64,000 nt of DNA from Planctomycetota bacterium (GTDB lineage: Bacteria; Planctomycetota; Planctomycetia; Gemmatales; Gemmataceae), in assembly GCA_016191165.1 (NCBI GenBank), contig JACPPF010000015.1:1-64000 (forward strand), in the 5' to 3' direction. This document shows, in pieces, positions 2,525-56,178 of the stretch (positions within the stretch are counted from its first letter, which is position 1; each line of letters opens with the position of its first letter). The notes beneath the pieces are model-generated. The model searched no databases. It was not told where the DNA came from and was given only the letters and a program-made list of their open reading frames with translations. The position numbers and the translations under genes are program-made.

Positions 2525-3394
2525 TCAGTTTGATTCGTGAGTGGTATAGTTCGTGGCCTTCTTTTGTGCGGTCAAATATAAGTCCAGACCCAAGACTCGG
2601 CCAAAATTCCCGAGCAGTTTTGCGCGATTCACAAGCACCCTGCCGCAAAGCCTGAACGGGTCCATGTTCTGGGCCTGAATGGAAACTGATTCAAATTTGG
2701 CCAGCATCCTGCGAAGATCACGTCTTGACAATAGCACGGTCTCAGGCGCCGCTTCGCCCGCCGCGTTGGCGTCGTAAGCTTTCCTGCGTTCAGTGGAAAT
2801 CCGGTCCGGGCGATTTAATACTCTCCAGTCCCTGAGCAATTCCGCCGTGGTCTGCAAGGGCCAACCGGTCCATTGTCGCCACGAGAATTTGTTGTAGGCC
2901 ATCAAAACCGCGACCCCGCCGCCGCGCAAGACACGAAAGACCTCATCGAAGCAGCGCTGAATGTTTCCCGTGTGATGGAGGCAGCCGATCGAAACGACAA
3001 AGTCAAACGATTCATCCGGAAAAGTCATCTCAAGCGCGCTTCCACACACCGCGGAGCCCGGGAGGTTCATGAGGCGCAGACGATGATTCAACATCTCCAC
3101 GGCGTTGGGCGCTATATCCAAACCCTTGTAACGTGCCCCTGCCTCGGCGATTTTCTGCCCAAGGGTTCCATACCCCAGGCCGATTTCAAGAACGTCTTTT
3201 CCGACCATGCGGTCGGGTTGCACAATCGGCAGGAGGTATGGGTACAGGCCAAAAAATCCCTCGTCAAACCGTCGCAAGGATTCGAACGAATGATCGGTCA
3301 GACCCAACGATCGGGCGAACCCTGAGCCACACAACTCATTCCAAAACCTGGCGTTCGACTGGTCAATTTCCAATTGTTCCGTTGTCACGACCAT
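2525..3394 (-). CDS. Class I SAM-dependent methyltransferase (Methyltransf_11 type)
   Basis: About 289 residues starting MVVTTEQLEIDQ. The SAM-binding motif I is VLEIGLGYGTLGQKI, followed by the acidic strand end YKGLDIAP and the motif FDFVVSIGCLHHTGNIQ, the usual order in ubiE/Methyltransf_11 enzymes. The reading frame stays open upstream to 3646, but that extension runs through mobile repeat copy A, so it is not taken as coding. The ATG at 3394 has AGGGAGA just upstream and is preferred over the ATG at 3409. Such genes in polysaccharide loci often methylate a sugar or lipid-linked intermediate. The substrate here is unknown. Confidence 0.8.
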   Translation of the reverse strand: MVVTTEQLEIDQSNARFWNELCGSGFARSLGLTDHSFESLRRFDEGFFGLYPYLLPIVQPDRMVGKDVLEIGLGYGTLGQKIAEAGARYKGLDIAPNAVEMLNHRLRLMNLPGSAVCGSALEMTFPDESFDFVVSIGCLHHTGNIQRCFDEVFRVLRGGGVAVLMAYNKFSWRQWTGWPLQTTAELLRDWRVLNRPDRISTERRKAYDANAAGEAAPETVLLSRRDLRRMLAKFESVSIQAQNMDPFRLCGRVLVNRAKLLGNFGRVLGLDLYLTAQKKATNYTTHESN

Positions 3395-3472
3395 TTCTCC
3401 CTGAGTCATTGGAAACAAACATCCCAGCCATATGAATTTTCGGCAGCCCAGGCCGGCGCCGGTTATCATTTC

Positions 3473-3613
3473 GGCCTGGTTCAAATCGATCGAATTTAGG
3501 GTAACAAACAATCCGCGAGCCGCCGGGCGTGTCCCGGCGGTGAACCAAGGCGGATCGGGATGACCGCCGGGACAAGCCCGGCGGCTCGCTGTGACTTTCA
3601 CTTGAACCAGGCC
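3473..3613. mobile_element. MITE-like hairpin element, copy A
   Basis: A 141-bp element bounded by perfect 12-bp terminal inverted repeats GGCCTGGTTCAA (3473-3484) and TTGAACCAGGCC (3602-3613). It is flanked by a perfect 8-bp target duplication ATCATTTC (3465-3472 and 3614-3621). The centre is a long stem with CGAGCCGCCGGGC on one side and GCCCGGCGGCTCG on the other; each arm is itself palindromic (CCGCCGGG/CCCGGCGG). It has no gene. It lies immediately upstream of the methyltransferase and would separate it from any upstream promoter. Copies B, C and D are at 3862, 8690 and 51835. Confidence 0.9.
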
Positions 3614-3621
3614 ATCATTTC

Positions 3622-3861
3622 CATTCACCCGCGGACGAAAGTACAATGGCCTGTGGGAATTGTCAATGCAGCATGATTTGGCTAACTGAAATAGGATGTT
3701 TATCCGCGTAGACAGGCTCTGAAAGGCGCCAAACGATCAGTCTGGGCAAGTTGAGTCGATCGGGCAATCGCTTTTGGTCCCCAGGTTTCAGACGCGTTGG
3801 ATGTCATGAGCATAAAGCCCGAGGACCGGCCAAACTCCGTTGGGTAGCCTTCGCTGGGGCT
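3622..3861. other. Spacer between element copies A and B
   Basis: The whole gap 3395-4194 is non-coding and dominated by two MITE-like copies. Between them I see no ORF, RNA gene or clear promoter. The divergent promoters for the methyltransferase (minus) and wecB (plus) must lie in this gap or inside the elements. Confidence 0.5.
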
Positions 3862-4003
3862 GGCCTAGGTCAAATCGATCGAATCCGGGGTAACAAACCA
3901 ACCGCGAGCCGTCGGGCTTGTCCCGGCGGTGAACCAAGGCGGATCGGGATGAACCGCCGGGACAAGCCCGGCGGCTCGCTGTGACTTTCACTTTAACCAG
4001 GCC
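3862..4003. mobile_element. MITE-like hairpin element, copy B
   Basis: A 142-bp copy in the same orientation as copy A. The termini have drifted (GGCCTAGGTCAA and TTTAACCAGGCC), but the 8-bp target duplication CTGGGGCT is perfect (3854-3861 and 4004-4011). The central stem and the loop (GGTGAACCAAGGCGGATC) match copy A almost base for base. It lies about 190 bp upstream of wecB. Confidence 0.9.
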
Positions 4004-4194
4004 CTGGGGCTCAAGGTTGGAAAAGGGTCGATTTGATTTGGGGCGTGAATTTTCCTTCGGCATTGCAAAAAAAGCGGGGCTTGTTTACAAATCGATTTCC
4101 ATCAGGCTAGAGGTCCATCCGTACCTGCGCATGTCAGTGCCCTTGGATTTGCGGCGGCCCCGGCCCGCCGGGAAAATTGCCCTGGAGACAATCC

Positions 4195-5280: not shown

Positions 5281-5305
5281 GGTTTTGCTTTGCGCGGCCG
5301 AATAT

Positions 5306-5380
5306 GGCACTTCCGAGTCTGAAGCGGAGGCGAAGTGCCAGCCCAACCTTCGCTGACGCTTCAGGCTCGGACAGCGTGCC
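5306..5380. repeat. Palindromic repeat, 'GAGCCTGAAGCG' family
   Basis: An imperfect inverted repeat between wecB and the next glycosyltransferase: TCCGAGTCTGAAGCG on the left and CGCTTCAGGCTCGGA on the right, with GGCAC/GTGCC as an outer pair. Related copies are at 22122-22176 (intergenic) and 40145-40210 (inside the DUF790 gene). It could form a hairpin in the wecB mRNA, but there is no T-tract to make it a convincing terminator. Confidence 0.8.
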
Positions 5381-8151: not shown

Positions 8152-8689
8152 GGGCCCTCGTCCCTGCCATTTTTTTTGTCGCGGCAGGAGCCGTCGCTGG
8201 GTGCAAAAGAGGAACGAAACTCGAAGGATTTTCTAACACCAAACTGGCATCCGTCGGTGGCTTGCGGACAATCAGGAGCCGGAATTCCAGGCGTGGTTCA
8301 AAAGGCGTCGGGTTCGGGTAACTCAAGGATTGCCGAAAGAAGGCGAACACGCCGTTGGGTAGTGTCACAGTTTGATTGTAGACCTCACGCTCCGCGTGAG
8401 GTCTACCATACGCCGAAGCAAAGTGAGACACCACCCGTCGTTGCTGACATCGACTGATGTGAGAAGTCCACTTTGCTCCATAACCCATAAATTTGCAACA
8501 CGTTACAGCGTTTTTTTTGAGGACTTCTCACGGGGCGCGGGGGGTATCACGACCGGGAAGTTTGGGAAAGCCAGGTAGATTTGGATTGTCACCTCGGTTT
8601 GAACCAGGCCGAATTCCATTTCCGCCGGGAAATCCAGCCATTCCGCCCAAACTTCCAGGCCTGGATTCCTCCGCGTCCCGTGATAAGTC
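8152..8689. other. Long non-coding gap upstream of the sigma gene, rich in palindromes
   Basis: No gene is supported here. The segment holds a perfect short hairpin at 8378-8406. At 8521-8690 there is a degenerate inverted-repeat region: ATCACG and GGAAGTTTGGG at 8545-8570 are mirrored by CCCAAACTTCC and CGTGAT at 8646-8684. The string TTTGAACCAGGCC at 8598-8610 is identical to the right end of the MITE-like element, as if an older copy once ended there. The sigma gene promoter should lie near 8160-8300, but I cannot assign boxes. Confidence 0.5.
8378..8406. repeat. Perfect 13-bp hairpin, 'GTAGACCTCACGC' family
   Basis: GTAGACCTCACGC (8378-8390), loop TCC, then GCGTGAGGTCTAC (8394-8406). The same core (CTCACGC, GCGTGAGGTCTAC) recurs inside the enolase gene at 44832-44879, so this is a dispersed palindromic family and not a chance hairpin. 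Confidence 0.85.
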
Positions 8690-8831
8690 GGCGTGGTTCA
8701 AATCCATCGATTTTAGGCGAACAAACAATCCGCGAGCCGCCGGGCTTGTCCCCGCAGTGCATCCCGATCCGCCTTGGTTCACCGCCGGGACAAGCCCGGC
8801 GGCTCGCTGTGACTTTCACTTGAACCAGGCC
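8690..8831. mobile_element. MITE-like hairpin element, copy C (centre inverted)
   Basis: A 142-bp copy with right end TTGAACCAGGCC and slightly decayed left end GGCGTGGTTCAA. Outer flanks and stem arms have the same orientation as copies A, B and D. The 22-bp centre between the arms is reverse-complemented: GCATCCCGATCCGCCTTGG here, where the others read CCAAGGCGGATCGGGATG. No target duplication is visible. It ends 14 bp from the proB stop codon, so a proB transcript would read into it. Confidence 0.88.
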
Positions 8832-51834: not shown

Positions 51835-51976
51835 GACCTGTTTCAAATCCATCGCTCTTAGGTTAACAAATAATCCGCGAGCCGCCGGGCGTGTCCCGGC
51901 GGTGAACCAAAGCGGACCGGGATGCACCGCCGGGACAAGCCCGGCGGCTCGCTGTGACCTTCCCTTGAACCAGGCC
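51835..51976. mobile_element. MITE-like hairpin element, copy D
   Basis: A 142-bp copy with right end TTGAACCAGGCC (51965-51976) and decayed left end GACCTGTTTCAA. The flanking 8-mers AGGCTTTC and AGACATTC agree at six positions, consistent with an old target duplication. Stem and centre match copies A and B. It lies between mazG and the large membrane protein gene, ending 31 bp before the latter's start codon. Confidence 0.88.
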
Positions 51977-56133: not shown

Positions 56134-56178
56134 TCCCGCAGCGAGCCGCCGGCCTTGTGCCGGCGGAAAACTCCCGAA

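Follow-up and report, generated by a model that had tools for sequence, protein, structure and literature searches.

Two hairpin-forming sequences lie close together near the start of a 64,000-nucleotide stretch of DNA from a bacterium of the Gemmataceae (Planctomycetota), which was analysed as a whole and is called the window here. By what mechanism did they reach this place? RAYT transposases are the usual explanation for REPs. A sequence-only reading of the window had instead assigned the pair to a MITE-like mobile family that was moved by transposition and not by REP-like spread.

Two copies of one element in the window

The two sequences have been designated copies A and B of the element MITE1, and their features are as follows.

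3473-3613, plus strand: MITE1 copy A, 141 bp, with terminal inverted repeats (TIRs) at 3473-3484 and 3602-3613
3465-3472 (left) and 3614-3621 (right), no strand: 8-bp target-site duplication of copy A, ATCATTTC
3515-3589, no strand: REP doublet (REPIN-like core) of copy A, GCGAG-hairpin, loop, hairpin-CTCGC
3862-4003, plus strand: MITE1 copy B, 142 bp, with imperfect TIRs at 3862-3873 and 3992-4003
3854-3861 (left) and 4004-4011 (right), no strand: 8-bp target-site duplication of copy B, CTGGGGCT
3904-3979, no strand: REP doublet (REPIN-like core) of copy B

On re-reading, the coordinates first given for both copies proved exact, and the matching TIRs and the different perfect 8-bp direct repeats reported at A and B were confirmed. 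Copy A ends in perfect 12-bp repeats (GGCCTGGTTCAA/TTGAACCAGGCC) and copy B in imperfect ones (GGCCTAGGTCAA/TTTAACCAGGCC); the identity between them is 92% over 142 aligned columns. Both are intergenic, with a methyltransferase gene (minus strand) on one side and a UDP-GlcNAc 2-epimerase gene (plus strand) on the other. MITE1 contains no transposase gene, and the ORF readings that cross it are only spurious.

In the ORF list, the methyltransferase ORF (2525-3646, minus strand) is given a TTG start that carries it through copy A. False N-termini of this kind may recur in the annotation of this organism.

Copy number and placement in the genome

The assembly is a draft of 7.2 Mb in 183 contigs. 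An assembly-wide search flagged 158 candidate places for MITE1, each copy being matched on both strands because the core is near-palindromic. Exact matches to the 12-mer GGCSTGGTTCAA number 100 in the assembly, compared with 4 for the reversed control pattern. A sample of 1.94 Mb, consisting of whole or near-whole contigs picked partly for holding MITE1 copies, contained 23 full copies and about ten others that are partial or consist of the core only, and some 80 copies per genome is therefore a reasonable estimate. All 23 full copies sit between gene-like ORFs, as judged by a rough gene prediction in which the elements were masked. Two further copies are present in the window.

8690-8831, plus strand: MITE1 copy C, whose REP doublet has its loop in inverted orientation with respect to the TIRs; no recognisable duplication
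51835-51976, plus strand: MITE1 copy D, with a decayed duplication AGGCTTTC / AGACATTC, 6/8 matching

Across 50 copies, conservation of the 12 TIR columns ranges from 0.86 to 1.0, and copies diverge from the MITE1 consensus by 2-16%. The loop between the REPs is inverted relative to the ends in three of 50 copies, including the window copy at 8690, which is the outcome that recombination between the inverted arms would give.

MITE1 was not found among PLSDB plasmids or INPHARED phages, and its right end was not found among other GTDB genomes, a set from which the window's own genome is possibly missing. In relatives of the same genus, matches to MITE1 are limited to REP-sized pieces. A TIR scan of 95 genomes of the family gave only a weak excess, 15 against 1 in genome G112 and 11 against 1 in genome G006.

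Target-site duplications and empty sites

In 54 complete copies, 78% of positions agree between the two flanking 8-mers, against 33% (maximum 39%) when right flanks are swapped among copies. Under the same shuffle control, perfect 8-bp duplications (18 of 54 copies) have a mean of 0.34 and a maximum of 3, and duplications matching at 7 or more of 8 positions (33 of 54) a mean of 0.86 and a maximum of 5. No comparable signal was obtained from these copies for duplication lengths of 4-7 or 9-13. The duplicated sites favour the near-palindromic sequence GAAWWTTC. Duplication mismatches average 2.3 in the more divergent third of copies, against 1.1, and the relation between divergence and duplication decay is a trend only (Spearman 0.23, p=0.11).

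Empty sites were sought by joining the flanks with one 8-mer dropped and matching the product within the genome; L003, L010, L029 and C135 were left out as self-matches to element ends. Related (paralogous) empty sites were found that hold the 8-mer once. They are C21:13429-13488 for the copy C110:32055 (83% over 60 nt), C23:93403 for C3:18904 (84% over 50 nt), C23:12364 for C123:1168 (77% over 71 nt), and, for C91:233, the following site in the window.

5289-5344, minus strand: related empty site for the MITE1 copy on contig C91, 82% over 56 nt, with a single 8-mer

The 142-bp unit is a true MITE family, gene-less and bounded by TIRs and 8-bp target duplications. The sequence-only reading had proposed as much, to be given up if copies lacked both 8-bp duplications and empty orthologous sites; the duplications at 54 copies genome-wide and the paralogous empty sites within the genome agree with it.

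The same observations bear on the suggestion that the hairpin is a selected functional RNA or DNA element, such as a terminator or a stabiliser of mRNA, that recombination has dispersed. Its intergenic placement and strong folding would suit such a role, both copies folding far better than shuffled sequences (z -10.5 for A, -7.6 for B). Compensatory changes, however, did not rise above the shuffled level (3 cells, with a shuffle mean of 5.8), Rfam gave no match for copies A and B, and the duplications and empty sites show transposition. With covariation at the level of shuffles and no Rfam family, this reading is highly improbable and has been dropped.

A REP doublet as the body of the element

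The core of MITE1 has the form GCGAG-CCGCCGGG-CTTGT-CCCGGCGG ... CCGCCGGG-ACAAG-CCCGGCGG-CTCGC, that is, two tagged hairpins head to head. Each REP unit comprises a GCGAG tag, 8-bp stems and a 5-nt loop. The stems vary from place to place with pairing preserved, and the tag and the YTTRT loop are constant. The hairpin also occurs without MITE ends in the same genome, both singly, as in the window, and as doublets with other loops (L183; C135:96965; C165:13431).

56141-56166, plus strand: solo REP hairpin GCGAGCCGCCGGCCTTGTGCCGGCGG, without MITE ends

The REP core is also present in relatives. The exact 26-mer GCGAGCCGCCGGGYTTRTCCCGGCGG was found in at least 73 stretches of GTDB genomes, all from Planctomycetota among the matches listed. 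Among these, 78 exact REPs on planctomycete contigs were counted; 25 have a partner hairpin, and MITE ends are absent from all 78. The core is thus a short, tagged, multi-copy intergenic hairpin found as singles and as inverted doublets, which is what characterizes a REP or REPIN. Within the 1.94-Mb sample, 48 of 99 GCGAG-tagged hairpins belong to MITE1, and most of those outside it look like unrelated chance hairpins.

In the same genome, L009 1495-1645 is a tandem array without MITE ends that contains three copies of a unit of about 59 bp with one REP hairpin each. The loci L343-L415 outline a phylum-wide REP of Planctomycetota with a GCGAG tag and a YTTRT loop, often paired as REPIN-like doublets whose stems are CCGCCGGG or CGGCGGGG.

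An ordinary REP or REPIN family mobilised by a Y1 (RAYT) transposase, with incidental terminal repeats and 8-bp duplications, would account for the doublet in the core, and the genome does hold 11 Y1_Tnp hits, several of them RAYT-like. At the loci read in this genome, however, no GCGAG-REP lies within about 1.5 kb of the 11 genes. In addition, the 8-bp duplications depart overwhelmingly from chance, no REP from elsewhere in the phylum has MITE ends among the matches listed, and a second element with the same ends, MITE2, moves without any REP. There is hardly any room left for this explanation: for the 142-bp unit, RAYT-type spread is refuted by the duplications and empty sites, although the solo REPs may still be spread in that way. 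As no RAYT flanked by the GCGAG-REP was seen in this genome, the core has been named REPIN-like and not a RAYT-linked REPIN.

Of the earlier statement that this is not REP-like spread, the part concerning the mechanism stands, since the unit spreads by a TIR and target-duplication mechanism; the internal hairpin is nevertheless itself a REP doublet. MITE1 is, with good confidence, a chimera in which a DDE-type MITE encloses a REPIN.

MITE2 and the shared ends

MITE2 measures 234-236 bp, has the same TIRs as MITE1 and contains no REPs. Its 8-bp duplications are perfect in four copies, and one copy is present in the window.

8290-8610, minus strand: MITE2 copy with MITE1-type TIRs and no REP doublet, 321 bp, enlarged by an internal palindromic insert
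8282-8289 and 8611-8618: perfect 8-bp duplication GAATTCCA of this copy

Within this copy, at 8358-8435, lies an extra palindromic segment GTAGACCTCACGCGGAGCGTGAGGTCTAC, apparently another short repeat.

When a MITE1 end is compared with the opposite MITE2 end, GGGTAAC is common to both at 27-33, and the remaining pair of ends has AGGTSACA in common at 17-24. In the alternative pairing, similarity is at background. A third remnant, C159:75284, carries GGGCAAC at the position of the GGGTAAC box. To judge from these boxes, the resemblance suggests that MITE1 and MITE2 come from one parent element; such an origin is suggested, not proven, because neither end comparison is more than borderline by itself (p about 0.06-0.07 each).

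The shared TIRs and subterminal boxes would also be expected if both MITEs were internal-deletion derivatives of a single autonomous IS that already contained the REP pair, and a variant of 89 bp with one REP and a near-perfect 8-bp duplication (C44:2323-2411) fits this possibility. Against it, an IS of that kind was not seen in the genome or the relatives searched, and MITE2 lacks the REP; this derivation is considered unlikely, though it deserves more attention than the other alternatives. The preferred reading remains that of a REP doublet captured by the MITE.

The two elements have also been found in tandem. At C165:96463-96863 the order is GACTATTC-MITE1-GACTATTC-MITE2-GACTATTC, with one 8-mer throughout, and C128:1-427 has a similar MITE1/MITE2 tandem with exactly 8 bp of the same sequence between the elements. 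Both arrays look as if an existing target duplication had been reused as a target. The core of MITE2, GTGAGAAGTCC...GGACTTCTCAC (about 65-155), is also encountered alone many times (C23:12349, C26:64635, C88:22907), and it serves as a target of MITE1 insertions as well.

Search for the parent insertion sequence

Transposases of the IS1595, IS6 and ISL3 families were searched for in the genome by profile. The assembly contains neither the IS1595 (PF12762) nor the ISL3 (PF01610) transposase, and derivation from either family found no support.

For IS6 the comparison is closer. Members of this family share 8-bp duplications and GG tips with cTGTt and caaa motifs, and two IS6-type MITEs are on record (PMC7986276), so that an IS6-like ancestor with GG tips, a CAAA motif and 8-bp duplications might be envisaged for MITE1. 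The fully conserved TGT of the family is not found, however (TGG here), the spacing is one base off, and the IS6 transposase (PF13610) has no match in this assembly and only a few in relatives. Descent from IS6 is accordingly quite improbable.

The 100 exact-TIR places were compared with known MITE coordinates and the unexplained ones inspected; none of the inspected places held a full-length element bounded by exact TIRs. A structural search for TIRs with target duplications, over the 1.94 Mb and other loci, returned only MITEs and chance-like pairs and no IS, and a comparable generic finder, applied to relatives, recovered ISL3 elements whose 8-bp duplications are perfect. The full-length IS with the same ends and 8-bp duplications that the sequence-only reading had proposed to look for did not turn up in the draft assembly. 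Nor was an autonomous partner found in the relatives searched, and a draft cannot exclude one.

Comparison with known systems and proposed origin

MITEs with 8-bp duplications are as such already known. Those derived from insertion sequences include two IS6-family examples (PMC7986276), and bacterial MITEs have been reviewed (PMC10969869). Like them, MITE1 is short, gene-less, TIR-bounded and multi-copy, has target-site duplications and would be mobilised in trans. It differs in that its parent IS was not found and its body is a REP doublet. None of the families tested has ends that match its GGCCTGGTTCAA. ISL3 elements of the same bacterial family likewise have GGC tips and A+T-rich 8-bp duplications (ATTTTTTA, CAAATTCG, CGAATCTT), but their ends read GGCTCTTC.../GGCTCATC... 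and differ from those of MITE1, and the ISL3 gene is absent from this genome.

With REPINs and BIMEs (PMC3116915, PMC2817692) the MITE1 core shares two head-to-head REP hairpins that form a long hairpin with a tag outside each, intergenic placement and many copies. Unlike them, it is enclosed in DDE-type TIRs with 8-bp duplications and is tagged GCGAG, not GTAG, and no RAYT with this REP was seen in this genome. The GTAG- and CGTC-tagged REPs (PMC3733652) are also short tagged palindromes and also occur in Planctomycetes, but the tag here is GCGAG, a string absent from the text of that paper. No description of a MITE with a REP-doublet body was found in the open-licence full texts searched, and none of the MITE1 family or the phylum-wide GCGAG REP of Planctomycetota in the open-access literature searched.

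MITE1, about 142 bp long, is very probably a non-autonomous DNA transposon with a REP-doublet body, which arose by capture followed by DDE amplification. An autonomous IS with the same ends would have encoded a DDE transposase that cuts and inserts MITE1 in trans; because the parent was not found, this part rests on general knowledge of elements with TIRs and target duplications. The parent may since have been lost from the genome or be missing in the assembly. In this lineage, a REP doublet would have been captured between the transposon ends, or the ends would have formed around the doublet, and DDE transposition would then have amplified it as cargo. As to the order of events, we infer that the REP was captured by the MITE.

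It is somewhat favoured that a DDE system captured the REPIN and is now its main amplifier in this genome. If so, REP amplification has become uncoupled from RAYT transposases and REPs could hitch-hike. The fixed 8-bp duplications and the empty sites are strong sequence evidence that here a REP doublet spreads within a MITE, by a mechanism other than RAYT, and MITE1 offers a test case for short palindromic repeats that spread without an enzyme of their own. The analysis thereby documents in Planctomycetota both a GCGAG REP found across the phylum and an abundant family of MITEs.

Other mobile elements

One contig end, the start of C69, was considered as a parent joined to a MITE and was rejected, as another mobile element, here called X, had inserted into a MITE1 copy. 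Element X is multi-copy at contig ends, with a 3' end ...GATTAAGTAACCTAG beyond which the flanks differ. Its places are L199 1-140 (the C69 start), L193 and L201 (contigs C67 and C70), L195 (genome G219), and L194 and L200-L206 (genome G009). Its protein, 530 aa in G219, matched no Pfam or NCBIfam model. At L201 128-249, a gene-less element of 122 bp with perfect 25-bp TIRs CAATCACCCGCTTTATTGATGGGGT and an 8-bp duplication TTAAAGAA is inserted in X, and an identical copy of it lies at C21:90785-90906.
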